Below are positions 2,934 to 61,693 of a stretch of 64,000 nucleotides of DNA, piece by piece. The stretch is from contig NZ_JACHLP010000004.1 of assembly GCF_014204525.1 (NCBI RefSeq), positions 456,214-520,213 of the forward strand. The letters are read 5' to 3'. A program made the position numbers and the translations under genes. The notes beneath the pieces were generated by a model. That model saw only the letters and a list, made by a program, of their open reading frames with translations. It was not told the DNA's origin and ran no database searches. Numbering within the stretch: position 1 is the stretch's first letter; each line of letters starts with the position of its first letter. The stretch comes from Roseateles oligotrophus (GTDB lineage Bacteria > Pseudomonadota > Gammaproteobacteria > Burkholderiales > Burkholderiaceae_C).

Positions 2934-2939
2934 TAGAGT
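2934..2939 (+). promoter_or_regulatory. Predicted -10 box of coaBC, leaderless arrangement
   Basis: TAGAGT preceded by TGC (extended -10 form TGnTAGAGT). The spacer GCGGCCC of 7 nt leads straight to the ATG at 2947, so a start 7-8 nt after the -10 box would give an mRNA beginning at or next to the AUG. No Shine-Dalgarno sequence is present. Confidence 0.5.
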
Positions 2940-2946
2940 GCGGCCC

Positions 2947-4170
2947 ATGTCTGAAACCACTCCTCTTCAACTGGCCGGCAAGCATGTCTTGCTCGGCCTC
3001 TCGGGCGGCATCGCCTGCTACAAGAGCGCCGAGCTGATCCGCCTGCTGAGCAAGGCCGGTGCCACCGTGCAGGTCGTGATGACGGCCGCGGCCGAGCAGT
3101 TCATTACCGCCGTCACCTTGCAAGCCTTGTCGGGCCGCGCCGTTGTCACCAGCCAGTGGGATGCGCGCGAGCCCAATAATATGGCCCACATCAATCTGGG
3201 CCGCGAGGCCGATCTGATGCTGATCGCCCCGGCCAGCGCCGACTTCCTCGCCAAGCTGGCCCAGGGCCGCGCCGACGAATTGCTGAGCCTGACGGCCCTG
3301 GCGCGCCCGCTGGAGCGCTGCCCCCTGGCCGTGGCCCCGGCCATGAACCGCGAGATGTGGGCCCACCCGGCCACCCAGCGCAATATCGCCCAGCTCAAGG
3401 CCGACGGCACCTTGATCCTCGGCCCCGACGCGGGCGACCAGGCCTGCGGCGAGGTGGGCGACGGCCGCATGCTGGAGGCGGCCGATCTGCTGGAGGAGGT
3501 GCTAGCCATCTTCCAGCCCAAGCTGCTGGCCGGGCGCAAGCTCTTGATCACCGCCGGCCCGACCTTTGAGCCCATCGATCCGGTGCGCGGCATTACCAAT
3601 CTGTCCAGCGGCAAGATGGGTTTTGCCATCGCCCGCGCGGCCCGCGAGGCCGGCGCCGAGGTGACTTTGGTGGCCGGCCCCGTGCATCTGGCCACGCCGC
3701 GCGGCGTGACCCGCATCGATGTGCAAAGCGCCCAGCAGATGTTCGACGCCGTGCTGCCGCTGGCGCCGGCGCAAGACCTGTTTGTGGCCACGGCCGCGGT
3801 GGCCGATTGGCGGCCGGCACAGAGCAGCGCTCAGAAGATCAAGAAAGACGGCAGCGGCAGCGCGCCCAGCATCGCCATGTGCGAGAACCCCGACATCCTG
3901 GCCAGCGTGGCCGCCTTGCCCGCGCCACCTTTCTGCGTGGGCTTTGCGGCCGAGAGCGAAAATCTCGCCGCCCATGCCCGCGCCAAGCGCCTGCGCAAGA
4001 AGGTGCCCTTGCTGGTCGGCAATGTCGGCCCGGCCACCTTCGGCCAGGACCACAATGCCTTGCTGCTGGTGGACGCCGAGGGCGAGCGCGAAATTCCCCA
4101 CAACGACAAACAAAGCCTGGCCCGCGAGTTGATCGCGGACATCGCCCGGCGCCTGAATGCAAAACAATGA
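2947..4170 (+). CDS. coaBC: Bifunctional phosphopantothenoylcysteine decarboxylase / phosphopantothenate-cysteine ligase
   Basis: Two consecutive steps of coenzyme A synthesis in one 407-residue cytoplasmic protein. The N-terminal flavoprotein half shows [19 protein letters not shown], the decarboxylase PAMNREMW motif and a Cys-containing flap ([12 protein letters not shown]). The C-terminal CTP-dependent ligase half starts near [27 protein letters not shown] and contains the AAVADWRP motif and a KIKK Lys motif. ATG 2947 is chosen over an in-frame GTG at 2938 because it fits the family start and the predicted leaderless promoter. The last bases overlap dut in ATGA. Confidence 0.96.
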
Positions 4171-4625
4171 CCCAGACCACCGTTGACCTCAAAGTGCTCG
4201 ATGCCCGCATGGCCGAGCAAATCCCCAGTTATGCCACGCCCGGCAGCGCCGGCCTGGACCTGCGCGCCTGCCTGGATGCGCCCGTGACTCTGGAGCCCGG
4301 CCAGACTTTTCTTGTGCCCACCGGCCTGGCCATCCACATCAACGACCCCGGCCTGGCCGCCATCATCCTGCCGCGCTCCGGCCTGGGCCACAAGCATGGC
4401 ATCGTGCTGGGCAATCTGGTCGGCCTGATCGACAGCGATTACCAGGGCCAGCTGATGGTGAGCTGCTGGAACCGCGGCCAGACGGCCTTCGTGATCCAAC
4501 CCCTGGAGCGCATCGCCCAACTGGTGCTGGTGCCGGTGGTGCAGGCGGCCTTTCGCCGCGTCGAAGACTTTGCCGATGCCTCGCAGCGGGGCGAGGGCGG
4601 GTTTGGGTCTACGGGTAAGGCTTGA
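4167..4625 (+). CDS. dut: dUTP diphosphatase
   Basis: Hydrolyses dUTP to dUMP and pyrophosphate, keeping uracil out of DNA and feeding thymidylate synthesis. The 152-residue trimeric dUTPase shows all five motifs: [19 protein letters not shown], the uracil-binding [20 protein letters not shown], and the flexible C-terminal GEGGFGSTG. The start ATG overlaps the coaBC stop (ATGA), so translation is probably coupled; the coaBC-dut pair is widespread in proteobacteria. It is convergent with the toxin gene, one base away from its stop. Confidence 0.96.
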
Positions 4626-4626
4626 A

Positions 4627-4965
4627 TCAAGCGCTCAGCAGGCGCCGCGTCAGCAGGGCTTGCATATCGCGTCGGCCATCGGCGATCAGGTAGATCAGGA
4701 CTTGTGCTGCCAGCACCCGGTAGATCACGCGATAGGGCTTGAACATGGTTTGCCGGTATTCGCGCAGACCCAGGGCCAGCAGTTCTCTGGGAATGCTGCC
4801 GCGCTCGGGAAATTGCTGCAGGCTGGCAATGACGAGCGTCAATTCGTCCAGCACATGATTGGCGCTGGCGCTGCAATCGTACTCGGCGATGTAGTCGTAG
4901 ATGGCTTCAAGATCCCGCTCGGCGCCCGCCGTCAGCAAGACCTCGTAGCTGCGCGCCGCGGCCAT
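4627..4965 (-). CDS. ParE/RelE-superfamily toxin
   Basis: 112-residue protein of the type II toxin superfamily. The N-terminal helices (GAERDLEAIYDYIAEYD) and the C-terminal strand set (YRVIYRVLAAQVLIYLIADGRRD) match ParE proteins, which act on gyrase; RelE-type ribonucleases share the fold. The ParE-like C-terminus argues for gyrase, but the target is inferred. Its ATG overlaps the antitoxin stop in TGATG, which gives coupled translation with the antitoxin made first. It sits on the opposite strand between dut and slyD in otherwise core sequence, as a solitary accessory insertion would. Confidence 0.85.
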   Translation of the reverse strand: MAAARSYEVLLTAGAERDLEAIYDYIAEYDCSASANHVLDELTLVIASLQQFPERGSIPRELLALGLREYRQTMFKPYRVIYRVLAAQVLIYLIADGRRDMQALLTRRLLSA

Positions 4966-5240
4966 CAGCGTGCCGGGTGCTTGGCCCGCAGGCGCGCGAC
5001 CACCTGGGCGGCCGGTTTGAGCTTGCCTTCGGCAATCTCCTGGTTGCCCAAGGCCAGAATCTTCAGCAAGGCCAGGGTTTCCTGGGTCTCTTCATACGAG
5101 GCCACATCTTGCAGCACCGCCTTGGCTTCACCGTTCTGGGTGATGACGATGGGTTGCCGCTCCTGGCACAGCAGGCTCAGTACCTCGGCCGCATTGGCCT
5201 TGAGGTAGCTGATGGGCTTGATTTGACTGGTGTAACGCAT
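4965..5240 (-). CDS. Phd/YefM-family antitoxin
   Basis: 91-residue antitoxin. The N-terminal DNA-binding part has SYLKANAAEVLSLLCQERQPIVITQNGEAKAVLQDVASYEE compressed into the usual Phd/YefM pattern (L..N..ev......pv.IT.nG..kAVl.......), and the Lys/Arg-rich C-terminus would wrap the toxin. It precedes the toxin gene with a one-base overlap. Autoregulation is expected: a 14-bp palindrome lies upstream (5270-5283) and overlaps the likely -10 box. Confidence 0.87.
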   Translation of the reverse strand: MRYTSQIKPISYLKANAAEVLSLLCQERQPIVITQNGEAKAVLQDVASYEETQETLALLKILALGNQEIAEGKLKPAAQVVARLRAKHPAR

Positions 5241-5269
5241 GAGGAGGCCTTTCGCATTTGACGCGGGAT

Positions 5270-5283
5270 GACTAAATATAGTC
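5270..5283 (-). promoter_or_regulatory. Palindromic operator and -10 box of the toxin-antitoxin operon
   Basis: GACTA-AATA-TAGTC is a 14-bp palindrome 30 bp upstream of the antitoxin start. Read on the minus strand it contains TATATT, a good -10 hexamer, so antitoxin binding would block polymerase. Phd/YefM operators are short palindromes of this kind; the role here is inferred. Confidence 0.55.
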
Positions 5284-5309
5284 TTTATTTGGCCTTGTGA
5301 CTCAGGGTG

Positions 5310-5831
5310 TCAATGAAGGGGTTCGTCCGCTGGCGCCCCGCCGATCACGCTGAACACGGCCTCGCCCAGCGAGCCGGCCTCGATCTCGGCCTCGCTGGCG
5401 GCGCGCACCTCCAGCACTTTCAGATGCATGCGCAGGCCGATGCCGGCCAGGGGGTGGTTGCCGTCCAGCACCACATGCTCGGGGTAGACGTCGGTGATGG
5501 TGTAGAGCGCGTGCTCGGGCATGTCCGGCGTGGCCGCGCCCTCGGGCAGGCCTTCGAGCTGCATGCCGGGCTCGACCTCGTCGGGGAAGAGGCTGCGCGA
5601 TTCGAAGCAGACCAGGCTGGAGTCGTAGTCGCCAAAGGCTTCTTCGGGTTGCAGGGCCAGGCTGACGGCGTAGCCGGCTTGCTGGTCCAGCAGGGCCTCC
5701 TCGACCTTGGCAAACAGATCGCTGCCACCGTAGAAAAACTCCAGCGGCTCGGCCAGTTCGTCGATCATTTGGCCTTGGGCATCTTCAAGTCGCCAGCTCA
5801 GGGCGACCACACAGGGGGCAGAAATTTTCAT
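5310..5831 (-). CDS. SlyD-like FKBP-type peptidyl-prolyl isomerase
   Basis: 173 residues with the SlyD/FkpB layout: FKBP strands ALSWRLEDAQGQMIDE and PLEFFYGGSDLFAKVEEALLDQQAGYAVSL, then an inserted flap (roughly residues 75-125) containing HPLAG, and a return to the FKBP fold in LKVLEVRAASEAE. The flap has the chaperone-like insertion typical of SlyD, but there is no His/Cys-rich metal-binding tail as in the E. coli protein. Probably a cytoplasmic folding helper. It is monocistronic, 12 bp from the neighbouring kinase gene stop. Confidence 0.85.
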   Translation of the reverse strand: MKISAPCVVALSWRLEDAQGQMIDELAEPLEFFYGGSDLFAKVEEALLDQQAGYAVSLALQPEEAFGDYDSSLVCFESRSLFPDEVEPGMQLEGLPEGAATPDMPEHALYTITDVYPEHVVLDGNHPLAGIGLRMHLKVLEVRAASEAEIEAGSLGEAVFSVIGGAPADEPLH

Positions 5832-5843
5832 GCCTGCATTGTT

Positions 5844-13379: not shown

Positions 13380-13402
13380 TCGGAACGGAGGAGCAGGCGA
13401 CA

Positions 13403-14527
13403 ATGCCGGCCATGGACATCACTGCAAAACTGCCGCTGCTGGGCGGCCTCAGCCCCGAACAATTCATGCGCAGCCACTGGCAGAAAAAGCCCTTGCTGGT
13501 GCGCCAGGCCTTGCCGGGCATACGTCCGCCGGCCTCGCGCAGCGAGCTCGCTGCCCTGGCCGCCAGCGAGGACGCGGAGTCGCGCCTGGTCAGCGCTTTT
13601 GATGGCCGCTGGGCCTTGCGCAAAGGCCCGATTGCCAAACTGCCGCCTTTTTCAAAACCGGGCTGGACCCTGCTGGTCCAGGGCCTGGAGCAGCATGTGC
13701 CGGCGGCTTACGAGCTGCTCAGCCAGTTCCGCTTCGTGCCCGAGGCGCGGCTGGATGATTTGATGATTTCCTACGCCAGCGATGGCGGCGGCGTGGGCCC
13801 GCATTTCGATTCTTACGACGTCTTCCTGATCCAGGTCCATGGCCAGCGCCGCTGGCGCATCGGCCAGCAGAAGAACGCCCAGCTGCGCGACGATGTGCCG
13901 CTGAAGATCATCGCTAACTTCGAACCTGAGCGGGAGCATGTGCTGGAGCCGGGCGATATGTTGTATCTGCCGCCGGGCTGGGCGCACGACGGCGTGGCCA
14001 TTGGCGAATGCATGACTTGCTCAGTGGGCTTCCGCACGCCCTGGCGCGCCGAGCTGGCCAAGGACTTGCTGAGCCGTCTGATGGACGACGAGGACAGGCA
14101 TTACGTCAACAAAATGTATGCCGACCCCAGGCAGCCGGCCACCACCACGCCGGGCCTGATGCCGCAGCAATTGCTGGACTTTGCCCGCGATGCCGCCGAG
14201 CGCGCCCTGCGTGAGCCGCTGGCGCTGGAGCGGGCCCTGGGCGAGGCGATGACCGAGCCCAAGCCCCATGTCTGGTTCGACGCCGGCCTGCCGCTGCCGG
14301 CCGGCCGCGCGGCCGTGCTGGACCGCCGCAGCCGCATGCTGTACGACGCCGCCCATATCTTCATCAACGGCGAGTCCTTCCGCGCCGCCGGCCGCGATGC
14401 CAAGCTGATGCGCGAGTTCGCCGACCACAGGGCGCTGACGGCCAAGCAGGTGGCGCAACTGTCCGAAGGCGCGCGGGACTTGCTGGACCAGTGGGCCGAG
14501 GACGGCTGGGTCCGGCTGGCCGACTGA
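13403..14527 (+). CDS. JmjC-like cupin, ribosomal protein uL16 (L16) arginine 3-hydroxylase family
   Basis: 374 residues resembling YcfD/RoxA, 2-oxoglutarate- and Fe(II)-dependent oxygenases that hydroxylate an Arg of ribosomal protein L16. The N-terminus has the LGGLSPEQFMRSHWQKKPLLVRQA pattern of the cupin-4 family. The metal triad is His and Asp in GPHFDSYDVF and the distal His in PPGWAHDGVA. A C-terminal winged-helix-like domain follows (residues about 290-374). ATG 13403 is preceded by GGAGGAG at 9 nt; ATG 13412 (MDITAKL) is also possible, since GACAAT at 13399-13404 could be a -10 box for a leaderless start there. Confidence 0.88.
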   Translation: MPAMDITAKLPLLGGLSPEQFMRSHWQKKPLLVRQALPGIRPPASRSELAALAASEDAESRLVSAFDGRWALRKGPIAKLPPFSKPGWTLLVQGLEQHVPAAYELLSQFRFVPEARLDDLMISYASDGGGVGPHFDSYDVFLIQVHGQRRWRIGQQKNAQLRDDVPLKIIANFEPEREHVLEPGDMLYLPPGWAHDGVAIGECMTCSVGFRTPWRAELAKDLLSRLMDDEDRHYVNKMYADPRQPATTTPGLMPQQLLDFARDAAERALREPLALERALGEAMTEPKPHVWFDAGLPLPAGRAAVLDRRSRMLYDAAHIFINGESFRAAGRDAKLMREFADHRALTAKQVAQLSEGARDLLDQWAEDGWVRLAD

Positions 14528-19371: not shown

Positions 19372-20585
19372 GCCGCCACGGCGCCGCGCGGGATGGCGCT
19401 CTCGCGCACCGGCAGATTCACCAGCGCGGCCATCACGCCAAGCCCGACGGCCAGCCACCAGACCCCATCGTAGCTGCCGCTCAGGTCGTAGAGCTTGCCA
19501 CCCAGCCAGACGCCCAGAAAGCTGCCGATCTGGTGGCTGAGGAAGACAAAACCGCCCAGCATGGACATGTGTTGCACGCCGAAGATCTGCGCCAGCACCG
19601 CATTGGTGGGCGGCACGGTGGACAGCCACAGCACGCCCATCACGGCCGAAAAGAGGTAGATGGAGGCCGGCGTCAGCGGCAGGCTCAGAAAGATCACGAT
19701 GGCGATGGAGCGCAGGGCGTAGATGGCCGAGAGGATGTAGCGCTTGGGGAAGCGCTGGCCCAGCGAGCCGGCCGCGTAAGTGCCAAACACATTGAAGAGC
19801 CCGATCAGGGCCAGTGAATAGGTGGCGATCTGGGGGCTGAAGCCATGGTCCTTCAGATAACTGGGCATGTGCACGCCGATGAAGACGACCTGGAAGCCGC
19901 AGACGAAATAGCCCAGCATCAGCAGCTGGAAGCTGCGGTAGCCAAAGGCCTCGCGCAGCGCCTGGGCAATGCTTTGCTGCTGGCCGTGGGCGGCTTGCGC
20001 ACCCTTGGGTTCGCGCAGGCCCAGGGCCAGCGGCAGGATGATGAGCGCTGCACAGGCCAGGATGAAAAGAGCGTTTTGCCAGCCCGTGTGGCCGATCAGC
20101 CAGTTCTCCACCGGCACCATCAGGAACTGCCCGAAGCTGCCCGCCGCCGCCGCCACGCCCATGGCCCAGGAGCGCTTCTCGGGCGCCACATTGCGGCCGA
20201 TGACGCCGTAGATCACCGCGTAAGTCGTGCCCGACTGGGCGATGCCTATCAGCAGGCCGGCGCTGCCGGTGAAGGCCAGGCCCGAGGTCGACAGCGCCAT
20301 CAGCACCAGGCCCAGGGCATAGAGCGCGCCACCGGCCAGCAGCACGCGGAAAGGGCCGTAGCGGTCGGCCAGCATGCCGGTGAAAGGCCCGGCCAGGCCC
20401 CAGGCCAGGTTCTGTATCGCCAGGGCGAAGGCAAAGGTCTCGCGGGTCCAGCCGCGTTCCAGGGTGATGGGCTGCAGCCACAGGCCGAAGCCGTGGCGTA
20501 TGCCCATGGACAGGGTCACGATCAGGGCGCCGCAGAGCAGCACCTGGCGCATGGACAAGCGTGGGGGGAGGGCGGGGGCAGTCAT
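19368..20585 (-). CDS. MFS transporter (oxalate/formate antiporter-like)
   Basis: 405 residues, twelve predicted helices. Family features: RHGFGLWLQPITLERGWTRETF in the first loop region, GMLADRYGPFRVL (motif A between helices 2 and 3), a repeat of it as GSLGQRFPKRYIL in the second half. This is the monocarboxylate/oxalate-formate branch of the superfamily; the substrate cannot be told. It is the first gene of a minus-strand unit with the 40-residue protein and the methyltransferase. The promoter looks leaderless (20592-20597). Confidence 0.87.
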   Translation of the reverse strand: MTAPALPPRLSMRQVLLCGALIVTLSMGIRHGFGLWLQPITLERGWTRETFAFALAIQNLAWGLAGPFTGMLADRYGPFRVLLAGGALYALGLVLMALSTSGLAFTGSAGLLIGIAQSGTTYAVIYGVIGRNVAPEKRSWAMGVAAAAGSFGQFLMVPVENWLIGHTGWQNALFILACAALIILPLALGLREPKGAQAAHGQQQSIAQALREAFGYRSFQLLMLGYFVCGFQVVFIGVHMPSYLKDHGFSPQIATYSLALIGLFNVFGTYAAGSLGQRFPKRYILSAIYALRSIAIVIFLSLPLTPASIYLFSAVMGVLWLSTVPPTNAVLAQIFGVQHMSMLGGFVFLSHQIGSFLGVWLGGKLYDLSGSYDGVWWLAVGLGVMAALVNLPVRESAIPRGAVAA

Positions 20586-20591
20586 GGGCGG

Positions 20592-20597
20592 ACTCTA
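20592..20597 (-). promoter_or_regulatory. Predicted -10 box of the MFS gene, leaderless arrangement
   Basis: Minus-strand TAGAGT, 6-nt spacer CCGCCC, then ATG. No Shine-Dalgarno sequence. Confidence 0.45.
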
Positions 20598-21956: not shown

Positions 21957-23234
21957 CTACTGGCTCAGCACCCGCCCTTGCTTGACCCGCAGCTGGATGC
22001 GCTCCAAGGCCTCCAGTCCTTGCAAGGGATTGCTCTTGAGCAGCAGAAAGCTGGCCTCGCAGCCATTGTCAAAACAGGCGATCTTGCGCTTGGGGAAGAG
22101 GGCGCGCGGCGTGTCCACCGTGGCCAGGCGCAGCAGCTGGCTGCGGTCCAGCAGGCCCAGGGCGTCCAAGGTGCGCAGCTCGCTCAGCGCCGTGCCGTTG
22201 TAGAGGTCGGAGCCCAGCAGCAGCGGCACCTTGGCCTCCAGCAGGCGGCGCAGATTCTCGGCCTGCAGCTGGCGCACGGCGGCCAGGGTCTCGGCCGGCA
22301 TGGGGAAGAGCTTGCTGCCCGAGATGGCGGTGATGACGCTGAGCTTCTTTTTGGCCGCCTCGGCCGCCGCCTCGGGGCTGATGCGGTAGCGCTCGGCCGT
22401 CGTGCCCTCGAAGAAATGGAGGCCCGGCAGGCGGGCCACCCAGTCCACCCCGCTCTGGGTGGCCAGGGCGAAGTCGGCGGCGGTGTCGGCCTGGGCGATG
22501 ACCTTGTAGCCATCCTGGTGGGCGCGCTTGACGATAGCCCCCACCAGCTCGGGCCTCAGCCCCAGGCGGCCGTGCTGCTTGGGCTCGCTGCGCAGCTCGG
22601 GGCTTTCCGAGCGGCTGATCATCAGCTTGATGGAGTCGCTTTTGCGCGGCCCGACCAGCGGCCACTTTTGATTGAGGTCCTGCAGCGTGTCCATCACCAG
22701 CACGGCCTTGTCGATGAAGTCCTCGGCGCGCAGCTTGGGGTCGTCGCCCAGCAACTGGGCCAGGGGCTGGCCTTCGCTGGCGGTGATGCAGGCGCTGTTG
22801 AACAAGACCTCGGGCGAGGCGGCCTGGGCGGCGATGGGCCGCATCTCGGCCACCGCCTTGGGCTCGCCGCATTGCTGGGCGGTGTAGAAGACGCCGTCGC
22901 GCAGATAGCTGGGCGCATAGCGCGCAAAGCCCCACAAGGTCTGCAGATTGTGGTTGTGGGCATCGGCCAGGGGCGGGATCAGGAACTGGCCCTTCAGGTC
23001 CATCTGACGCTGGGCTTTTTTGATGCGTTGGTCGGTGAAGCGGCCGTCCTTGACGTAGAGCGTGCCGCGCTGCAAGCCCTTGCCATCGAACCATTGGGCG
23101 TTTTTCAGCTCCATGCTCAGCGCGGCGCTGGCCTTGAAGTAAGGCGTCTCGGGTTCGGGATTGGCGGCGGCCGGGACCGTGGCGAGCAGCAGGCTCAGGC
23201 CGAGTGAGAAGGGAAGGATGCGGGGAACTTTCAT
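21957..23234 (-). CDS. Exported amidohydrolase-like protein, metal site degenerate
   Basis: 425 residues with signal peptide (cleavage near ANPEP). TIM-barrel amidohydrolase features are the HxH pair H93/H95 (DAHNHN), a strand with the bridging Lys (DSIKLMISR) and the distal Asp (LLLGSDLYNG). The two usual later histidines are missing: the VxxHA position reads VIAQA and the IEHG position reads WVARL. The protein may therefore bind one metal, have another activity, or be a binding protein. It is convergent with the FAD gene and divergent from the HDAC-like gene. Confidence 0.8.
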   Translation of the reverse strand: MKVPRILPFSLGLSLLLATVPAAANPEPETPYFKASAALSMELKNAQWFDGKGLQRGTLYVKDGRFTDQRIKKAQRQMDLKGQFLIPPLADAHNHNLQTLWGFARYAPSYLRDGVFYTAQQCGEPKAVAEMRPIAAQAASPEVLFNSACITASEGQPLAQLLGDDPKLRAEDFIDKAVLVMDTLQDLNQKWPLVGPRKSDSIKLMISRSESPELRSEPKQHGRLGLRPELVGAIVKRAHQDGYKVIAQADTAADFALATQSGVDWVARLPGLHFFEGTTAERYRISPEAAAEAAKKKLSVITAISGSKLFPMPAETLAAVRQLQAENLRRLLEAKVPLLLGSDLYNGTALSELRTLDALGLLDRSQLLRLATVDTPRALFPKRKIACFDNGCEASFLLLKSNPLQGLEALERIQLRVKQGRVLSQ

Positions 23235-23314
23235 AGCCTGCCCATGCTAGCCGGGTTTGCCGGGCGGCCCCCGTGCGAAGATGGTTCCGCCCCAGAACAG
23301 CGAGGAGCCAAGGC

Positions 23315-24349: not shown

Positions 24350-24362
24350 CGCCGCCTAGAAT
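24333..24362 (+). promoter_or_regulatory. Predicted promoter of parE, leaderless arrangement
   Basis: TTGAGA (24333-24338), 18-bp spacer, TAGAAT (24357-24362), then 8 nt CCCGCCCC and ATG. No Shine-Dalgarno sequence. This is the best -35/-10 pair in the leaderless group. Confidence 0.6.
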
Positions 24363-24370
24363 CCCGCCCC

Positions 24371-26368
<1,998 letters not shown>

Positions 26369-30527: not shown

Positions 30528-31568
30528 TCAGACCCTGGCCATGGCGCGCGCGCATTCGCTGACCAGGGCCGGGCCCTTGTAGATCAGGCCGGTGTAGATC
30601 TGCACCAGATCGGCGCCGGCCTGCAGCTTGGCGCGGGCGTCCTCGCCGCTCAGCACGCCGCCCACGCCGATGATGGGAAAGTTGGCGCCCAGGGCCGCGC
30701 GCAGCAGGCGTATGACCTGGTTGCTGGCCTCGAACACCGGCTTGCCGGACAGGCCGCCGGCTTCTTCCGCATGGGGCAGGCCCTTGACGGCCTCGCGCGA
30801 GATGGTGGTGTTGGTGGCGATCACGCCGTCGATGCCATTGGCCTGCAAGGTGTGGGCGATGACGCTGACCTGGGCCTCGTCCAGATCGGGGGCGATCTTG
30901 ACGAACATAGGCACCTGGCGCGAGGCCTGGGTTTGCAGCTTGAGCTTGCGCTCCTGCAGGGCGCCCAGCAGGGCGTCCAGCGCCGCATCGCTTTGCAGGG
31001 CGCGCAGATTCTTGGTGTTAGGGCTGGAGATATTGACGGTGATGTAGTCCGCATGCGGGAACACGCCGTCCAGGCCCAGCAGATAGTCGTCCACCGCGTT
31101 TTCTATCGGGGTGGCGGCGTTCTTGCCGATATTCAGGCCCACCAGGCCGCCGGCGGCGCGGAAGGAGCGGGCGCGCTGCACATTGGCCAGAAAGCTGGCC
31201 AGCCCCTCGTTATTGAAGCCCAGGCGGTTGATCAAGGCCTGGGCCTCGGGCAGGCGGAACATGCGGGGCTTGTCATTGCCCGGCTGGCCCTTGGGCGTGA
31301 CCGTGCCCACCTCGATGAAGCCAAAACCCATGGCGCCCAGGCCGTCGATGCAGCGGCCGTTCTTGTCCAGGCCGGCGGCCAGGCCGATGCGGTTGGGGAA
31401 TTTGAGGCCGGCCAGGGTCAGGGGGTCCTGGATCCGGGGCTGGGACCACAGGCATTGCGCCGGCGTGTTCTGCAGCTTGGCGATCGAGGCCAGGGTCAGC
31501 TCGTGAGCATGCTCGGGATCGAGGCCGAACAGAAAGGGGCGGGTGAGGGCGTAGGGGATCAAAGACAT
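30528..31568 (-). CDS. pyrD: Dihydroorotate dehydrogenase (quinone), class 2
   Basis: Fourth step of pyrimidine synthesis, membrane-associated and coupled to the quinone pool. 346 residues. The N-terminal amphipathic helix ([22 protein letters not shown]) is the class 2 quinone-side extension. FMN and substrate motifs include [46 protein letters not shown] (catalytic Ser in the SSPNT loop) and [11 protein letters not shown] 31568 lies 8 nt after a GACAAT hexamer and lacks a Shine-Dalgarno sequence. Confidence 0.96.
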
Positions 31569-31576
31569 AGCGGCGG

Positions 31577-31582
31577 ATTGTC
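31577..31582 (-). promoter_or_regulatory. Predicted -10 box of pyrD, leaderless arrangement
   Basis: Minus-strand GACAAT preceded by TGC (extended -10), then 8 nt CCGCCGCT and ATG. No Shine-Dalgarno sequence. Confidence 0.5.
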
Positions 31583-41049: not shown

Positions 41050-42948
41050 TCATTCGCGCAGGAGAAAACGGGCCGGGTCGATGGCGTCCAGCAAGCTGGC
41101 TTCCAGCGGCATCGGGGTGCCGCTGATTTGCGCCGCCAGCACCTGGGCGCACAGCGCCGCCCAGGCAATGCCGCGCGAGCCCATGGCCGTGCACAAGGCC
41201 AGGCCGGGCCGACGGGGAATGAAGCGGGCCTGGTCCTGGCGGCCGCCATAGCCCGGCTGGGGCAGGCCGCCGACCAGGGGCAGGCGGTCCGGTGTGGCCA
41301 GGCGCCAGCCGACGCGGCCGCCCTGGATCGTGGCCCTGCTGTCGGCCTGTCCGCTCAGGCTCAGCCACTGGCCCAGATTGCGCTGATGATCGGCGTCACG
41401 CAGGCGGGGCTCGGTGTCGTCCAATTGGCTGGTGGCGCCGCACCACAGGCCTTGTGCGCGGTCCGCAATGGCATAACCCAGGCCGGCCACGGGCAGTTTG
41501 GGGCGTGGCTCGGCCGGGCTCAGGTGGCTGAGCTGGCCGCGCATCACCGACAGGCGCCTGGCCAGGCCCGGGTCCAGCTGGGCGAGCAAGACCTGAGCCT
41601 CATGCCCGCCGGCCAGCACCAGCAAGTCGGTCTCGGCGATCAGCCGACCGGCCTCGTCCCACAGCCGCCAGCGGCTTCCCAGCGAGTCGATGCGCGCGAC
41701 CCGGCAGTTGAAGCGGGTGTCGACCGCCGGCCCGGCGGCATCGAGCAAGGCCTGGGCATAGGCCGGTGGCGGCAGGGCGCCGCCGGCGGGGTAGAACCAG
41801 GCCGGGCCGGGCAGGGCCAGGCCGGACAGGGCGGCGGCCTCGGCCTGGCTCAGGGCCTGCACATAGTCGGGCGGCAGGCCCAGGCGCTGCAGCAAGGCCT
41901 GCATCTGGGCCAGGTCGCGCGCTTGCTCCAGGCGCAGCAGGCCTTGCTGCCGCCAGGGCAGGGGCGGCAGGTCGCGCAAGGCCTGGGCGGTGGCCAGGGC
42001 GGCCGCGCGATTGAAGCGGGCGTGCAGACCGTCGTCCGGGTTGAGCGTGCCGTGGTAGAGCCCGCCGGGATTGCCCGAGGCCGCCTGGGCCGGGCCGGGG
42101 CGGGCATCGATCAGGGTGCTCTTGATGCCTTGCGCCGCCAGGGCCCAGGCGCAGGCGGCACCGGCCAGGCCGGCACCCAGGATCAGGGCATGCTGGGCCT
42201 GGGGCGCAAGCGCCTCGCGGCCGGCGGGCTTCTGGGCCTGGTGGCGCGGCTCGTAACGGGCCACGCACATGCCACCCTTGTTGGCAAAGCCGCGCTGTCT
42301 TTCCTGGCTGAAGCCGGCGGCCATCAGCCCCTCGCGCAGCTGCGGCGCCACGCTCCAGCTGGCGGCCGTGGCGCCCGGGGCGGCGCGCCGGGCCAGGGCC
42401 TTGAGCAGATGCTTGTCCCACATCTCGGCATTGCTGGCGGGCCTGAACCCGTCCAGATAAAAAGCGTCGACCTCGGCCACCAGCTCGCGCATCCACAGAT
42501 GCACATCGCCCAGGCCCAGCAGCAGCTGCACCCGCCCGCCCTCGAAGCCGAGGCGGTGCAGATTGGGCGTTAGCGGCGGCCAGGCCTCGTGCAATTGCTG
42601 GGCCAGACCGGCCAGCTCGGGTGGCCGCTGGACCCGAGCCAGATCGTCCTTGCGCAGCGGGTGTTTTTCGATGCTGATGAAGACCAGGGTCTGGCAACGC
42701 TGCGGGTCTTGCCGCCAGGCCTGCCAGGTGGCCAGGAAGTTATTGCCCAGGCCAAAGCCGGTTTCCAGGATGACGAAGCGCGGCTTTTTTGCCCAGCGCC
42801 CGGGCAGGCTATTGCCGGCCAGAAAGACATGACGGGCCTGCTCCAGCGCCCCGGCGTGGCTGTGATAGACGTCTTGAAAGGCCGGCGCGCTGGGGGCGGC
42901 GGGGTCGGTGAAGTCGATCTCGGCAGGGGTGATGGGCTGGGTTTTCAT
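41050..42948 (-). CDS. mnmC: Bifunctional tRNA 5-methylaminomethyl-2-thiouridine synthesis enzyme MnmC
   Basis: 632 residues. The N-terminal methyltransferase half (MnmC2) has ILETGFGLGNNFLATWQAW and VDAFYLDGFRPASNAEMWD. The C-terminal FAD oxidoreductase half (MnmC1) starts with LILGAGLAGAACAWALAAQGIKSTLIDA and has GNPGGLYHGTLNPDDG. Together they turn cmnm5s2U34 into mnm5s2U34 in the wobble position of tRNA. ATG 42948 (third-codon ATG after 42957) is preferred because a TACGAT -10 box lies 7 nt before it and would exclude the earlier ATG. Confidence 0.93.
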   Translation of the reverse strand: MKTQPITPAEIDFTDPAAPSAPAFQDVYHSHAGALEQARHVFLAGNSLPGRWAKKPRFVILETGFGLGNNFLATWQAWRQDPQRCQTLVFISIEKHPLRKDDLARVQRPPELAGLAQQLHEAWPPLTPNLHRLGFEGGRVQLLLGLGDVHLWMRELVAEVDAFYLDGFRPASNAEMWDKHLLKALARRAAPGATAASWSVAPQLREGLMAAGFSQERQRGFANKGGMCVARYEPRHQAQKPAGREALAPQAQHALILGAGLAGAACAWALAAQGIKSTLIDARPGPAQAASGNPGGLYHGTLNPDDGLHARFNRAAALATAQALRDLPPLPWRQQGLLRLEQARDLAQMQALLQRLGLPPDYVQALSQAEAAALSGLALPGPAWFYPAGGALPPPAYAQALLDAAGPAVDTRFNCRVARIDSLGSRWRLWDEAGRLIAETDLLVLAGGHEAQVLLAQLDPGLARRLSVMRGQLSHLSPAEPRPKLPVAGLGYAIADRAQGLWCGATSQLDDTEPRLRDADHQRNLGQWLSLSGQADSRATIQGGRVGWRLATPDRLPLVGGLPQPGYGGRQDQARFIPRRPGLALCTAMGSRGIAWAALCAQVLAAQISGTPMPLEASLLDAIDPARFLLRE

Positions 42949-42955
42949 GGCGGGC

Positions 42956-42961
42956 ATCGTA
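42956..42961 (-). promoter_or_regulatory. Predicted -10 box of mnmC, leaderless arrangement
   Basis: Minus-strand TACGAT, 7-nt spacer GCCCGCC, then ATG 42948. No Shine-Dalgarno sequence. Confidence 0.45.
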
Positions 42962-51483: not shown

Positions 51484-52503
51484 TCAATAGGCTAGGCCCA
51501 TGGCGGTGCGGACCTCGCGCAAGGTCTTGCGGGCGACGGCGCGGGCGCGTTCGGTGCCGACCTCGACGATCCACTGCACCTGCTTGGGGTTGGCCAGATA
51601 GCTCTCGGCGCGCTCGCGCCAAGGCTCTTGTTCCTTGTGTATGGCCTGGATCAGGGGCTGCTTGCAGTCCAGGCAGCCGATGCCGGCCGAGCGGCAGCCC
51701 TGGGCCGCCCAGGCCTGGGTGGCGGCGGTGGAGTAAAGCTCGTGCAGCGGCCAGACGGGGCAGCGCGTGGGCTCGCCCGGGTCGCCGAGGCGCACCCGCT
51801 GCGGGTCGGTCGGCATGGTGCGAACTTTTTCTTCCACCACGGCCGGCGCATCGCGCATGGCGATGGCGTTGCCGGCGCTCTTGCTCATCTTCTGGCCGTC
51901 CAGGCCGGGCAGGCGGGCGGTCTCGGTCAGCAGCTCCTGCGGCTCGGGCAGGATGGCGCGCTCCGGTGCGTAGATGCGGTTGAAGCGGCGCGCCACCTCG
52001 CGGGTCACTTCCACATGGGCGGTCTGGTCCTCGCCCACCGGCACATAGGCGGCCTTGTAGATCAGGATGTCGGCCGCCTGCAGCAGCGGGTAGCCGAGGA
52101 AGCCGTAGGTGGCGAGTTCACGGTTCTTCTCGACCTGATCCTTGTAGCTGGGGATGCGCTCCAGCCAGCTGGAGGGCGTGCTCATGGCCAGCAGGGTGAA
52201 GAGCTCGGCATGCTCGGGCATGCGGCTCTGGATGAAGAGGGTGGCCTGCTCGGGGTCGACGCCGGCGGCCAGCCAGTCGATCACCATGTCGTAGACATTG
52301 CGTTCGATCTCGCCGCGGTCCTGGTAATGGGTGGTCAGGGCATGCCAGTCGGCGACGAAGAAGAAGCAGTCGTGGCTGGACTGCAGGCGCACCCAGTTCT
52401 TCAGTGCGCCGTGGTAATGGCCCAGATGCAGGGCACCGGTGGGGCGCATGCCGGAGAGCACGCGCTGGCGTGCGGGAGGGTGATCGGGAAGGGCTTCAGA
52501 CAT
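51484..52503 (-). CDS. trpS: Tryptophanyl-tRNA synthetase with four-Cys motif
   Basis: 339 residues, class Ic synthetase charging tRNA-Trp. The HIGH motif reads TGALHLGHYHGAL, the KMSKS motif is intact (GQKMSKSAG), and the Trp-binding region includes FVADWHALT. An insertion after KMSKS carries Cys-x21-Cys-x6-Cys-x2-Cys (PTRC ... GCRSAGIGCLDC), very like the Fe4S4-binding motif described for Thermotoga maritima TrpRS. ATG 52503 is chosen because a TACAAT -10 box lies 7 nt before it and overlaps the earlier ATG 52512. Confidence 0.95.
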   Translation of the reverse strand: MSEALPDHPPARQRVLSGMRPTGALHLGHYHGALKNWVRLQSSHDCFFFVADWHALTTHYQDRGEIERNVYDMVIDWLAAGVDPEQATLFIQSRMPEHAELFTLLAMSTPSSWLERIPSYKDQVEKNRELATYGFLGYPLLQAADILIYKAAYVPVGEDQTAHVEVTREVARRFNRIYAPERAILPEPQELLTETARLPGLDGQKMSKSAGNAIAMRDAPAVVEEKVRTMPTDPQRVRLGDPGEPTRCPVWPLHELYSTAATQAWAAQGCRSAGIGCLDCKQPLIQAIHKEQEPWRERAESYLANPKQVQWIVEVGTERARAVARKTLREVRTAMGLAY

Positions 52504-52510
52504 GGGTGGC

Positions 52511-52516
52511 ATTGTA
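52511..52516 (-). promoter_or_regulatory. Predicted -10 box of trpS, leaderless arrangement
   Basis: Minus-strand TACAAT, 7-nt spacer GCCACCC, then ATG 52503. No Shine-Dalgarno sequence. Six bp from the divergent purN box. Confidence 0.5.
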
Positions 52517-52522
52517 GGGAGC

Positions 52523-52528
52523 TACACT
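52523..52528 (+). promoter_or_regulatory. Predicted -10 box of purN, leaderless arrangement
   Basis: TACACT, 8-nt spacer CGCCGCCC, then ATG 52537. No Shine-Dalgarno sequence. Its -35 would lie at the trpS start codon. Confidence 0.45.
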
Positions 52529-52536
52529 CGCCGCCC

Positions 52537-53172
52537 ATGAAAAGCATCGTGATCCTGATCTCCGGCCGTGGTTCGAATATGGAGGCCATCGTGCGTGCCT
52601 GCGCGGCCGAGGGCTGGCCGGCCCGCATCGCCGCCGTGATCAGCAACCGGCCCGATGCGGCCGGTCTGGCGTTCGCGCAATCGCATGGCATTGCGACGGC
52701 CGTGGTCGATCACAAGGCCTTCAGCGGCGAGAACCGGCGCGAGGCTTTTGACGCCGAGCTGCAGCGGGTGATCGATGGCTTTGCGCCCGATCTGCTGGTC
52801 TTGGCCGGCTTTATGCGCATCCTCACACCTGGCTTCACGGCGCATTACGCCCAGCGCATGCTGAACATCCACCCCTCGCTGCTGCCGGCCTTCACCGGCC
52901 TGCACACGCATGCGCGGGCGCTGGAGATGGGCTGCAAATTCGTCGGCGCCACGGTGCATTTCGTGACGGCCGAGCTGGACCACGGTGCCATCGTGGCCCA
53001 GGCCGTGGTGCCGGTGCAGGCGGGTGATGACGAGGCTTCCTTGTCGGCCCGGGTGCTGGCGCTTGAGCACCGCATGTATCCGGCCGCCGTGCGCTGGTTT
53101 GTGCAGGGCCAGCTTGCGATCGAGGGCGGCCTGGTGCGTCAGACGGCGGGCGAGAACCAGGCCTTCAGCTGA
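52537..53172 (+). CDS. purN: Phosphoribosylglycinamide formyltransferase
   Basis: Transfers formyl from 10-formyl-tetrahydrofolate to GAR in purine synthesis. 211 residues. Motifs: ISGRGSNMEAI (phosphate loop), LLVLAGFMRIL, the catalytic Asn-His pair in NIHPSLLPAFTGLHTH, and the catalytic Asp region VHFVTAELDHGAIVAQ. Divergent from trpS with 33 bp between start codons. Confidence 0.96.
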   Translation: MKSIVILISGRGSNMEAIVRACAAEGWPARIAAVISNRPDAAGLAFAQSHGIATAVVDHKAFSGENRREAFDAELQRVIDGFAPDLLVLAGFMRILTPGFTAHYAQRMLNIHPSLLPAFTGLHTHARALEMGCKFVGATVHFVTAELDHGAIVAQAVVPVQAGDDEASLSARVLALEHRMYPAAVRWFVQGQLAIEGGLVRQTAGENQAFS

Positions 53173-53479: not shown

Positions 53480-53485
53480 GATAAT
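53480..53485 (+). promoter_or_regulatory. Predicted -10 box of the RsmB-like gene, leaderless arrangement
   Basis: GATAAT preceded by TGG (extended -10 form), then 6 nt CGGGGC and ATG 53492. No Shine-Dalgarno sequence apart from this GGGG. Confidence 0.45.
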
Positions 53486-53491
53486 CGGGGC

Positions 53492-54751
53492 ATGCATCCT
53501 AATGCCCTTCTTGAAATGAGCTGCGAGCTCTTGCGCGCCGTCCTCAAACTCGACGCACCCGCTGACAGCGTGGTGTCCGCCTTCTTCCGCCAACACAAGG
53601 GCCTCGGCCAGCGTGAACGGCATGCTCTCGCGGAGACGACTTATGCCGTCCTGCGGCGCCGGCCTCTGCTGCAGCATCTGGCCCAGTCGGGCCGCGGCCC
53701 CACCGAGAGACGCCTGGCCATCCTGGCCTGGCAAGGTAACGACACCTTTCTGCGTGGTGCCCTGACGCCGCCGGAGCAGGAATGGCTGGCCCAGGTCCAG
53801 GCCCTGGATCAAACCGGCCTGCCGCCCAAGCTGCGCCACAATCTGCCGGAATGGCTGGCCGCGCCCCTGCTGGAGCGTCTGGGCGAAGAGCAGTTCTGGC
53901 TGCTGGCCGCCAGCATGAACGAGCCTGCACCGCTTGATCTGCGCGTTAACACCCTGAAGAACAAGCGCGAGGAAGCGCTGGCGGCCCTGGCGGCGGCCAA
54001 TATCGCGGCCGAGCCCACGCCCTTCTCGCCCATGGGCCTGCGCATCCCCGGCAAACCGGCCTTGAACAAGTTGGAGCTGTTCACCGGCGGCGGCGTCGAG
54101 GTGCAGGACGAGGGCAGCCAGTTGCTGGCCTTGCTGTTGGATGCCAAGCGCAGCGAGATGGTGGTGGACTTCTGCGCCGGTGCCGGTGGCAAGACCCTGG
54201 CCCTGGGTGCGTCAATGCGCAATACCGGGCGCCTGTATGCCTTCGATGTGTCCGGCCACCGCCTGGCCGCCTTGAAGCCACGCCTGGCCCGCAGCGGCCT
54301 GTCCAATGTCTACCCGACCCAGATCGCGCACGAGCGCGACGATCGCATCAAGCGCCTGGCCGGCAAGATAGATCGCGTGCTGGTCGATGCACCTTGCTCG
54401 GGCCTGGGTACCTTGCGCCGCAACCCCGATCTGAAATGGCGCCAGACGCCGCAGGCGATTGCCGAGCTGCAAGTCAAGCAGGCCGCCATCCTGGCCAGCG
54501 CCGCCCGCATGCTCAAGCCGGGTGGCCGCCTGGTCTATGCCACTTGCAGCCTGCTGGACGCCGAAAACGAGCAGATCGCGCAAGCCTTTGAGTCCGCCCA
54601 TCCCCAGTTCACCAAGCTCGACGCCGCCGAGGTCTTGGGCAAGGCCCATGTGGCCCAGGCCGAGAAGCTGGTGGAGAAGGGCTATCTGCGCCTGTGGCCA
54701 CACCAGCATCAGACGGACGGCTTCTTTGCTGCCGTCTGGGAAAAGCGTTAA
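53492..54751 (+). CDS. RsmB/NOP2-family RNA (cytosine-5-)-methyltransferase
   Basis: 419 residues. An N-terminal helical domain is followed by the Rossmann core: VVDFCAGAGGKTLALGASM (SAM motif I), VDAPCSGLGTLRRNPDLKWR (motif IV, first catalytic Cys) and YATCSLLDAENE (motif VI, second catalytic Cys). The two-Cys arrangement is that of RsmB/RsmF 5-methylcytosine enzymes. The substrate is most likely 16S rRNA, but tRNA-acting relatives exist, so I give no symbol. Confidence 0.9.
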   Translation: MHPNALLEMSCELLRAVLKLDAPADSVVSAFFRQHKGLGQRERHALAETTYAVLRRRPLLQHLAQSGRGPTERRLAILAWQGNDTFLRGALTPPEQEWLAQVQALDQTGLPPKLRHNLPEWLAAPLLERLGEEQFWLLAASMNEPAPLDLRVNTLKNKREEALAALAAANIAAEPTPFSPMGLRIPGKPALNKLELFTGGGVEVQDEGSQLLALLLDAKRSEMVVDFCAGAGGKTLALGASMRNTGRLYAFDVSGHRLAALKPRLARSGLSNVYPTQIAHERDDRIKRLAGKIDRVLVDAPCSGLGTLRRNPDLKWRQTPQAIAELQVKQAAILASAARMLKPGGRLVYATCSLLDAENEQIAQAFESAHPQFTKLDAAEVLGKAHVAQAEKLVEKGYLRLWPHQHQTDGFFAAVWEKR

Positions 54752-56750: not shown

Positions 56751-56801
56751 CTTTGGGCGAGACCTGGGTTCAGGCCTCAAGCACCGGGATGCCAGGCCGA
56801 A

Positions 56802-56969: not shown

Positions 56970-56994
56970 GGTGATGCTCCTTGGGTCTTGTTAA

Positions 56995-57390: not shown

Positions 57391-58461
<1,071 letters not shown>

Positions 58462-58568
58462 CTAGGTAAGCTCGCCAAAGCTGCTGGGAACTTCTTGTTT
58501 GCCCTGGTTTCGCTGTAGGTGTTGGGCTTGCGTGCCGATATCAAATCATCATTTGTAGGAGACCATCT

Positions 58569-59234
58569 ATGGCCATGTTGTCGAATCTGGACCTGATCCG
58601 CAGAGTGCCTCTGTTCTCTCTGCTGACCACCGACCAGGCGCAGTCCATTGCAGACAATGTCGTCAAGCGTCGCTTCAAGCGTGGTGAATTGATCGTGGAG
58701 CAGGGCACCAAGTCGAATGCCCTGTTCATCTTGCTGAATGGCCGGGCCCGGGTGCTGACCTCGGATACGCGTGGCCGCGAAGTTATCCTGGCCGTGCTGC
58801 AGCCCGGCGACTATGTGGGCGAGATGAGCTTGATCGACCACGAACCCCATTCCGCCACCGTGCGTGCCGAGGTGCAGACCGATATGTTGGTGCTGGGCCG
58901 CCTGGAGTTCGCGCGCTGCCTGCCCGAGACCTCCAGCCTGTCCTATGCCATCCTGCGCGGCCTGGTGGCGCGTCTGCGCAATGCCGACCGTCAGATCGAA
59001 TCCCTGGCCTTGCTGGACGTTTATGGCCGTGTGGCGCGCACGCTGCTGGATATGTCCGAGGAAGAAAAGGGTTTGAAGATCATCCGCGGCAAGGTCTCGC
59101 GCCAGGACATGGCCAAGGTCGTCGGTGCTTCGCGCGAGATGGTCAGCCGGGTGATGAAGGATCTGGAGGAGCGCGGCGTGATCGAGACGCTGGAAAACGG
59201 CTCGGTGGTGATCAAGGAGCGCTTTCCCGATTGA
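58569..59234 (+). CDS. Crp/Fnr-family transcriptional regulator
   Basis: 221 residues: cyclic-nucleotide-binding domain, dimer helix, winged HTH. The phosphate-binding cassette is GEMSLIDHEPHSATVRAE; the position of E. coli Crp Arg82 is His, so the ligand may not be cAMP. There are no N-terminal Fe-S cysteines, so it is not Fnr. The recognition helix SREMVSRVMKDL keeps the Arg-Glu...Arg set that reads TGTGA half sites. TAGGAG precedes ATG 58569. Possible targets in the window were not identified; a single TGTGA lies at about 58421 in its own upstream region. Confidence 0.9.
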   Translation: MAMLSNLDLIRRVPLFSLLTTDQAQSIADNVVKRRFKRGELIVEQGTKSNALFILLNGRARVLTSDTRGREVILAVLQPGDYVGEMSLIDHEPHSATVRAEVQTDMLVLGRLEFARCLPETSSLSYAILRGLVARLRNADRQIESLALLDVYGRVARTLLDMSEEEKGLKIIRGKVSRQDMAKVVGASREMVSRVMKDLEERGVIETLENGSVVIKERFPD

Positions 59235-59317
59235 GTGCCGCTGGCGGTGAGCGCCGCCTTGTTGGGCTTGGTCACACCCTCGGGTGACGCGGGCCCGAAC
59301 AGCGCCAAATCCTGCGC

Positions 59318-59323
59318 CACAAT
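59318..59323 (+). promoter_or_regulatory. Possible -10 box of ftsK, leaderless arrangement
   Basis: CACAAT, 6-nt spacer GGCAGC, then ATG 59330. No Shine-Dalgarno sequence. Confidence 0.35.
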
Positions 59324-59329
59324 GGCAGC

Positions 59330-61693
59330 ATGAGTTTTCCCCTGGGTTCCCTGCTGCGTGGCGACGAAGCCGGCGCAAACGACAAAGTCTATAAACGCCA
59401 AGGCAAAAAAGGCCAGGCGCCCCTGCCCGTGCGCGGCAACCCCCTGAGCACGCCGGTCTGGCTGTTGCTGGGCGGGCTGCTGTGGTGCCTGGTGGTGCTG
59501 GCCTTGCTGAGCCACGACCCGGCCGATGCCGCGTTCAGTAGCTCGGGCACTCGGGCCCTGTACGGCAATCGCATGGGCGGCTTGGGGGCCTGGATTTCCG
59601 ATCTGCTGCTCTTCGGCTTCGGCTTCTCGGCCTGGTGGCTGGTGCTGATCGGGCTGCGCCAATGGCTCAGCGGTCTGGCCGGACTCTTGCGGGCCGAGGC
59701 GCCCGAGGTTCATCCAAGTGCCGGCGGCCGCAAGGCCTTGTGGGTTCTGGGCCTGCTGCTGCTGATGTGCGCCAGCTGCTCGCTGGAATGGACCCGGCTC
59801 TACTCCTGGGAGTCCCATTTGCCCGGCCATGCCGGCGGCGTGCTGGGTTATGCCCTGGGGCCCTGGAGCATGCGGGCCCTGGGTTTTGCCGGTTCGGGCG
59901 TGGTCTGGATTGCCCTGGCCTTGCTGGGTTCGGGCCTGGCCCTGCGATTCTCCTGGCTGCGCCTGGCCGAGGCCCTGGGCACCCGCCTGGACCAGTTGCG
60001 CGAACGCCAGGCCGAGCGCCGCGAGCAGGCCGAGGACCAGCGTGTCGGCGAGCAAGCCGCCCAGGAGCGCGAATATGTCGTGGAGGTGGAGCGCCAGGTG
60101 GTCGAGGAGCACCATGTGCCCATCGTCATCGAGCCGCCGGTGGTGGAGGTGCCCAAGTCCAGCCGCGTGGCCAAGGAGCGCCAGACCACGCTCTTCGTCG
60201 ACGCCAGCGACACCAAGCTGCCCCAGGTCGATCTGCTGGACAGCGCGCCGCAGCGGGTGGAGTCGGTGACGCCCGAGTCGCTGGAAATGACCTCGCGCAT
60301 GATTGAGAAAAAGCTGCGCGACTTTGGCGTCGAGGTGCGTGTGGTGGCGGCCTCACCCGGCCCGGTGATCACGCGCTACGAGATCGAGCCGGCCACCGGC
60401 GTCAAGGGCTCGCAAATCGTCGGCCTGGCCAAGGACCTGGCGCGCTCGCTGAGCCTGGTGTCCATCCGTGTGGTGGAAACCATCCCGGGCAAAAACTATA
60501 TGGCGCTGGAGCTGCCGAATGCGCGGCGCCAGACGATTCGTCTGTCTGAAATTCTGGGTTCGCAGGTTTATGCTGACGCCGCTTCTCAGCTGACCATGGG
60601 CCTGGGCAAGGACATCGTCGGCCTGCCCGTCGTCGCCGATCTGGCCAAGATGCCGCACTGCCTGGTGGCCGGTACTACCGGCTCGGGCAAGTCGGTCGGT
60701 ATCAACGCGATGATTCTGAGCCTGCTCTACAAGGCCGAGGCGCGCGATGTGCGCCTGATCTTGATCGACCCCAAGATGCTGGAAATGAGTGTCTACGAAG
60801 GCATTCCCCATCTGCTGGCGCCCGTGGTCACCGATATGAAGCAGGCCAGCAATGCGCTGAACTGGTGCGTTGGGGAAATGGAGCGGCGCTACAAGCTGAT
60901 GAGCAAGCTGGGCGTGCGCAATCTGGCTGGCTATAACAAAAAGATCGACGAGGCCAGCGAGCGCGGCGAGCACCTGCCCAACCCCTTCAGTCTGACGCCG
61001 GAAATGCCGGAACCGCTGGAGCGCCTGCCCTTCATCGTCGTCGTGATCGACGAATTGGCCGATCTGATGATGGTGGTGGGCAAGAAGATCGAGGAGTTGA
61101 TCGCCCGCCTGGCGCAAAAAGCTCGCGCCGCCGGCATCCACCTGATCCTGGCCACCCAGCGCCCCTCGGTCGATGTGATCACCGGCCTGATCAAGGCCAA
61201 TATCCCGACCCGCCTGTCCTTCCAGGTCAGCAGCAAGATCGACAGCCGCACCATCCTCGACCAGATGGGTGCCGAGGCCTTGCTGGGCATGGGCGATATG
61301 CTTTACATGCCCTCGGGCACGGGCCTGCCCATACGCGTGCACGGCGCCTTCGTCAGCGATGACGAGGTGCACCGCGTGGTCGAGTATCTGAAAAGCCAGG
61401 GCGAGCCCAATTACATCGAAGGCATTCTGGAAGGTGGCGTGCTGGAAGGCGAGGGCGGCGAGGCCGGCGGCGGCGGGGCAGGGGGCGAGGGCGAGGCCGA
61501 CCCCATGTATGACCAGGCGGTCGCTATCGTCCTGCAGCACCGGCGCGCCTCCATCTCCCTGGTGCAGCGCCATCTGCGCATAGGCTATAACCGCGCCGCC
61601 CGGCTGCTGGAGCAGATGGAAAAATCCGGCCTGGTCACCAGCATGGGGACCAATGGCAACCGCGACCTGATCGTGCCCAAACGAGACGAATGA
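59330..61693 (+). CDS. ftsK: DNA translocase FtsK
   Basis: 787 residues. Four N-terminal membrane helices (about 45-175) anchor it at the septum, then a fairly short charged linker (about 215-300). The motor has Walker [11 protein letters not shown] and Walker [15 protein letters not shown]. The C-terminal gamma winged-helix domain (last 65 residues, with [23 protein letters not shown]) reads KOPS sites. It pumps DNA toward dif and activates XerCD during division. Its stop overlaps lolA in ATGA. Confidence 0.96.

Follow-up and report, generated by a model that had tools for sequence, protein, structure and literature searches.

Start-adjacent -10 boxes as probable promoters of leaderless mRNAs in Roseateles oligotrophus

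The 64,000-nucleotide stretch of Roseateles oligotrophus DNA analysed here, called the window in the following (assembly GCF_014204525.1, contig NZ_JACHLP010000004.1, positions 456,214 to 520,213 of the forward strand), contains nine genes at which a -10-like hexamer is followed, after 6-8 nt, by the ATG start codon. In an original prediction, made from the sequence alone, they had been grouped into one class of leaderless promoters coexisting with genes that use Shine-Dalgarno (SD) motifs, and every hexamer, spacing and ATG lies exactly where it had been placed (Table 1). The gene names CoaBC, ParE, PyrD, MnmC, TrpS, PurN, RsmB-family and FtsK are backed by NCBIfam/Pfam matches, several of which fall under the strict curated cut-offs, yet have E-values no higher than 1e-67; the MFS protein can be assigned at the superfamily level only. 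It should be noted that the nine genes are a visual selection, and that the window is richer in such starts than the rest of the sample described below: an unbiased scan yielded 12 candidates among the 56 window genes, namely the nine and three more, compared to 50 among the 625 genes of the remaining sample (p = 0.003). The suggested preference of the class for core biosynthesis genes is weakened by this selection.

Table 1. Start-adjacent -10 layouts; all positions are those of the window.
Gene	Layout	Extent	ATG	Strand	Remark
coaBC	TAGAGT-N7-ATG	2934..2949	2947	+	exact layout in window sequence
MFS transporter gene	TAGAGT-N6-ATG	20583..20597	20585	-	exact layout
parE	TAGAAT-N8-ATG	24357..24373	24371	+	exact layout
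pyrD	GACAAT-N8-ATG	31566..31582	31568	-	exact layout
mnmC	TACGAT-N7-ATG	42946..42961	42948	-	exact layout
trpS	TACAAT-N7-ATG	52501..52516	52503	-	exact layout
purN	TACACT-N8-ATG	52523..52539	52537	+	exact layout
RsmB-family methyltransferase gene	GATAAT-N6-ATG	53480..53494	53492	+	exact layout
ftsK	CACAAT-N6-ATG	59318..59332	59330	+	exact layout
425-aa protein gene	TAGCAT-N9-ATG	23232..23249	23234	-	not listed in the original prediction
DUF1275 gene, divergent from coaBC	TATGCT-N6-ATG	2879..2893		-	additional candidate

Matches to the layout were counted in the whole genome (5.34 Mb, 30 contigs) and, with gene positions taken into account, in a sample of 864 kb that consisted of 800 kb of sampled stretches plus the window and held 726 genes called with a simple codon-usage script. 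The genome-wide count against a control, which had been suggested as a check, turned out in favour of the motif: TANNNT-N6-ATG occurs 283 times, compared to 179 times for the reversed pattern, and TANANT-N6-ATG 86 times, compared to 32. In the gene-aware sample, TANNNT precedes in-frame ATGs near gene starts 19 times at spacing 6 and 14 times at spacing 7 (17 and 11 times without the window), in contrast to about 2.4 times at each of the other spacings from 0 to 20, and out-of-frame ATGs are preceded by it only three times and once, respectively. With a wider -10 motif (TANNNT or VANAAT), in-frame ATGs give 34, 22 and 7 matches at spacings 6, 7 and 8, compared to a background of about 5. The corresponding numbers for GTG (3, 6 and 0), TTG (1, 4 and 0) and CTG (4, 6 and 4) are within the scatter of other spacings. 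After subtraction of the background, the excess amounts to about 48 of the 681 genes examined, i.e., about 7%. Start codons thus have a TANNNT-like -10 box at a distance of about 12 bp more often than expected by chance. TANNNT shows a separate, broad rise about 25-43 nt before the starts, and a similar start-adjacent peak with lower counts (7 and 3 compared to about 1.3) was found in a 400-kb sample of another genome of the genus (G008).

The conservation of these sites was assessed with a band test that comprised those 26 window genes for which five or more genus orthologues were available, and 3-nt spacing bands from 0 to 29. In the band of 6-8 nt, seven of the 26 genes have a -10 box, and for six of these it is conserved in at least 60% of the orthologues; the other nine bands combined contain two genes with a -10 box, of which one is conserved, and this lone case fits the gene at 23234. 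For seven of the nine genes, the layout is kept in 60 of the 64 genus orthologues found, i.e., for coaBC (TAGAGT at spacing 6-7 in 8 of 11), the MFS gene (spacing 6-7 in 8 of 9, which becomes 7 of 9 in the band test with its different reference start), parE (TAGAAT or TACAAT at spacing 7-8 in 9 of 9), pyrD (spacing 6-8 in all five found among the retrieved stretches), purN (spacing 7-8 in 10 of 10), rsmB (10 of 10) and ftsK (CACAAT or GACAAT in 10 of 10, at spacing 6 throughout). Among the matches listed, the RsmB start is preceded by GATAAT at spacing 6-7 in 9 of 10 named loci, which include Paucibacter, Roseateles, Pelomonas, Rhodoferax, Ideonella and Rubrivivax records. Two of the nine genes, trpS and mnmC, are weak members, because the trpS layout is present in just 2 of 10 genus orthologues and the single mnmC orthologue in the retrieved stretches has TAGAGT-N6-GTG, i.e., 0 of 1 with ATG; for all nine genes together, the layout is kept in 62 of 75. 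At mnmC in the window, another in-frame ATG overlaps the -10 box (open reading frame from 42957).

The 425-aa protein gene on the reverse strand at 23234, whose product has a weak amidohydrolase-like match slightly below the Pfam cut-off, is likely a tenth member of the class with a longer spacer, because 9 of 9 genus orthologues have TAGCAT or TACCAT at a spacing of exactly 9 nt.

A hand-picked list could also have been assembled from chance -10-like hexamers near ATGs, since TANNNT is degenerate and about five matches per spacing make up the background, and the trpS layout is poorly conserved. However, the height of the peak at spacings 6 and 7 and the six conserved genes in the 6-8 band, compared to a single one in all other bands, refute chance for the class, for which its probability is minimal; single genes may still be chance cases.

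The analysis adds to the original prediction that conservation is confined to the -10 box, the two bases preceding it and the ATG. The hexamers vary among orthologues inside the -10 class (TAGAAT/TACAAT, TACACT/TAGACT, CACAAT/GACAAT), and the spacer sequences change, their length staying at 6-8 nt. The mean identity between pairs of sequences reaches 0.94 in the hexamer, a value that, unlike the count of 60 of 64, is partly built in, as the sites had been selected in part by their -10 columns; it is 0.92 and 0.88 at the two preceding bases and falls to 0.38 at the -35 position and to 0.30 at the far upstream end.

The absence of a detectable -35 box, a strong preference for ATG and weakly structured 5' ends are further additions. 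A search for a -35 box at 64 leaderless-like sites gave no signal (best match 2.69 compared to 2.61 for shuffled sequences, standard deviation 0.08), and because the leadered comparison set is also without one (z = 1.0), no -35 contrast is claimed for the class. The consensus TAcAAT, in which the second A and the sixth T were fixed by the search, is similar to a -10 box. Directly upstream, at the positions of an extended -10 element, there is an enrichment of C at -13 (p = 3e-5) and a weak one of G at -14 (p = 0.02). Only 2 of the 62 leaderless-like genes of the sample have an SD-like motif, compared to 231 of 508 other ATG genes, a low number that is partly built in because the -10 box occupies part of the stretch searched for the SD motif. 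The spacers had been described as C/G-only or nearly so, and this fits as a tendency: they contain 82% G+C, 23 of 62 are purely G/C, and only 10% of their bases are A. The base preceding the ATG is C at 80% of the sites. The predicted fold of the first 40 nt from the AUG has -4.5 kcal/mol, compared to -6.7 kcal/mol in 231 SD-led genes (p = 6e-6), and the G+C content at the third position of codon 2 is 0.45, compared to 0.65. As a separate observation, C also precedes the ATG at 63% of 284 further ATG starts whose upstream stretch is longer than 60 nt, a start-context bias that extends beyond the leaderless class.

The hexamer occupies the position that is usual for a ribosome-binding site, and it could thus be a translation signal in a leadered mRNA and not a promoter element. 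However, its consensus is -10-like, the C just upstream is enriched, and its distance to the ATG is that of a -10 box to +1; moreover, in Deinococcus, the same motif in the same position was not replaceable by a ribosome-binding-site sequence and interacted with RpoD (PMC12340547). A purely translational role is very improbable. It is hardly more probable that the ATG is not the start codon and that translation begins at a downstream in-frame codon of a leadered mRNA. The N-terminal codons of trpS, the MFS gene and parE do differ in sequence and length among relatives, as would be expected in that case, but the 15 codons from the first Met of rsmB, ftsK, purN and pyrD are conserved without insertions or deletions in the genus, and the peak is confined to ATG and to the coding frame.

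The reading preferred here, to which a probability of about 0.88 is assigned, is that the start-adjacent -10 boxes are sigma-70-type promoters of leaderless mRNAs that begin at the AUG, as had been proposed; it is supported by the spacing statistics and by conservation in the genus. In this mechanism, a sigma-70-type -10 box 6-8 bp before the ATG would be recognised with the aid of an extended -10 element, G(-14)C(-13)-TAnnnT, instead of a -35 box, and RNA polymerase would begin at the A of the AUG. Typically, +1 lies 6-7 bp from the -10 box, and RNA polymerase prefers a pyrimidine-purine step at the start. Because the distance is the usual one and the C before the ATG provides such a step, the transcripts very likely begin at the AUG. 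On an mRNA without a leader, the ribosome would have to enter at the 5'-terminal AUG, presumably as a 70S ribosome, and the preference for ATG, the scarcity of SD motifs and the weak 5' structure are consistent with requirements for such direct entry. The other genes are predicted to have leadered mRNAs with SD motifs and with -10 boxes broadly at about 25-43 nt. The proposed coexistence of two modes in this genome, leaderless and SD-led, is well supported by sequence statistics and conservation.

A possible, if rather unlikely, alternative is that the promoters are real and that the first transcribed base lies 1-3 nt ahead of the ATG, which would give the mRNAs very short leaders instead of none. 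Long spacings are common, with 8 nt at parE, pyrD and purN and 9 nt at the gene at 23234, the latter also in its nine relatives, and the spacing ranges from 6 to 8 among orthologues. In contrast, the gene-aware peak is at spacing 6, followed by spacing 7, with a drop at 8, and the frequent C before the ATG together with the spacers poor in A would make the A of the ATG the favoured purine for the start.

Several observations nevertheless weigh against leaderless mRNAs as the general explanation. Individual N7, N8 and N9 cases may start 1-3 nt before the ATG. Given the observed background, chance would account for about 15 of the motif matches at spacings 6-8. Without gene calls, the counts in 400 kb are weak (22, 18 and 33 at spacings 6, 7 and 8 compared to about 15) and top out at spacing 8, not 6; the signal is weak in this raw count because coding sequence masks it. 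The layout is absent from three coaBC orthologues and one MFS orthologue, in addition to its rarity at trpS. Outside the genus, TANNNT-N6-ATG is below the reversed control in four of eight genomes of the order and above it in four. The built-in parts of the low SD count and of the hexamer identity and the missing -35 signal of the leadered set, mentioned above, belong to the same side.

Within the genus, TANNNT-N6-ATG exceeds the reversed-pattern control in all 12 genomes counted, including that of the window. When the first listed genome of each family of the order was compared, TANANT-N6-ATG was above the reversed pattern (p < 0.01, uncorrected) in 25 of 49 families; pooled counts were 1117 compared to 474 in 18 low-background families and 4505 compared to 4339 in 13 high-background families. 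An order-wide check of individual genes, with 60 genomes and 30 loci retrieved, revealed the rsmB layout at 2 of 30 loci, of which one belongs to the genome of the window and the other to a genome of the same family, and the parE layout at 4 of 29 loci (own genome not included), one in the same family and three in other families. As so few loci across the order keep it, the layout of parE and rsmB appears to be mainly a genus or family trait.

Some further observations concern the arrangement of the genes. The divergent genes trpS and purN have 33 nt between their ATGs, and their two outward -10 boxes are six bases apart (ATTGTA-N6-TACACT, window 52501-52539), a paired core that is kept in 8 of 10 genus relatives. 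TACAAT is found upstream of trpS in 10 of 10 genus relatives, with an in-frame ATG at spacing 8 in two only; it therefore appears that trpS has switched between leadered and leaderless states with its promoter kept. The TrpS protein of the window is 97% identical to that of Paucibacter sp. KBW04, which points to a Paucibacter/Roseateles-type member of the Burkholderiales. A further TrpS-like protein, 36-42% identical to that of the window, is present in 12 of 12 genus genomes searched (e.g., G000:C2:111343-112353). The coaBC gene and the divergent DUF1275 gene both have a -10 box at spacing 6-7 inside a 65-nt gap (window 2879-2949). A general bias of the class towards divergent neighbours was considered and rejected, as the difference (28 of 62 compared to 135 of 508, p = 0.004) was reduced to p = 0.05 after removal of short gaps. 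A JmjC-domain gene (window 13385-13414) has GACAAT-N7-ATG with the ATG at 13412, and a GGAGGAG stretch precedes an in-frame ATG at 13403, so that this gene may be SD-led.

The original prediction had held that leaderless genes on this scale are not well described in Betaproteobacteria, and this has to be corrected. Zheng et al. 2011 defined TANNNT-led genes as leaderless and predicted leaderless genes in 9 of 71 beta-proteobacterial genomes, with a mean of 6.8% and a range of 2.8-10.6% (PMC3160421), and starts have been mapped in two species. In Burkholderia cenocepacia J2315, 72 primary starts coincided with the start codon and a further 42 lay no more than 10 nt away, with tRNAs making up 24 of the leaderless transcripts (PMC4603805), and in Cupriavidus metallidurans CH34, 4.67% of the primary starts were leaderless (PMC7563307). 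An AT-rich bias about -20 to -10 before non-SD start codons has also been discussed in terms of possible Pribnow boxes (PMC5397173).

The genes described here resemble the TA-led genes of Zheng et al. in that TANNNT lies some 12 bp upstream of the start codon and SD motifs are scarce, alongside SD-led genes; unlike the results per genome or group reported in that text, individual promoters were followed here through a genus, in which the -10 box is kept and the flanks change (PMC3160421). The two mapped species are likewise Betaproteobacteria, with mapped starts at or near the AUG where the starts are predicted from sequence here, and a TA-rich motif directly precedes the leaderless genes in B. 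cenocepacia (PMC4603805). Over-represented functions were transcriptional regulators in B. cenocepacia, and transcription and replication/repair in C. metallidurans. The leader lengths implied by the rise at 25-43 nt fit the leaders mapped in these species, with a peak at 21-30 nt in B. cenocepacia (PMC4603805) and 26 nt in C. metallidurans (PMC7563307).

In Deinococcus-Thermus, TANNNT, mostly TACACT, similarly lies about 6-7 bp before the open reading frame, and as there, the motif is kept here among species of the genus. The Deinococcus motif was tested by experiment and shown to have promoter function without a -35 box, whereas promoter function is suggested by conservation here (PMC12340547); in the class described here, no -35 enrichment or conservation was found, and the leadered set gave no signal either. 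Nearly one third of the genes of D. radiodurans are of this kind, in contrast to the estimated 7% here (PMC12340547). A literature search for leaderless genes in Comamonadaceae found no papers, and for Roseateles, Rubrivivax, Leptothrix and Sphaerotilus none of the matches listed contained 'leaderless mRNA'; among those listed in a further search, none contained 'leaderless transcripts'. Because leaderless genes had already been reported in related bacteria, the present case is a well-supported further instance of them and not a new initiation mode.

It is a speculative and rather doubtful extension that, in this branch of the Burkholderiales, parE, coaBC, pyrD, ftsK and other core genes make up one coherent leaderless class, characterized by an extended -10 element (GC-TAnnnT), a G/C-rich discriminator, no -35 box and an AUG-preferring, unstructured 5' end, and that the class is switched together. 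If this were true, joint switching would operate via the GC-rich discriminator at the level of transcription and via 70S-type initiation at the level of translation. Irrespective of this, the results help to correct the annotated starts of core genes in Paucibacter/Roseateles-type bacteria, and they offer a conserved set of genes (parE, rsmB, ftsK, purN, pyrD and coaBC) for the study of leaderless initiation in a Gram-negative bacterium that also uses SD sites. They further show that promoters of this kind are maintained across a genus even as the sequence upstream of the -10 box is replaced.

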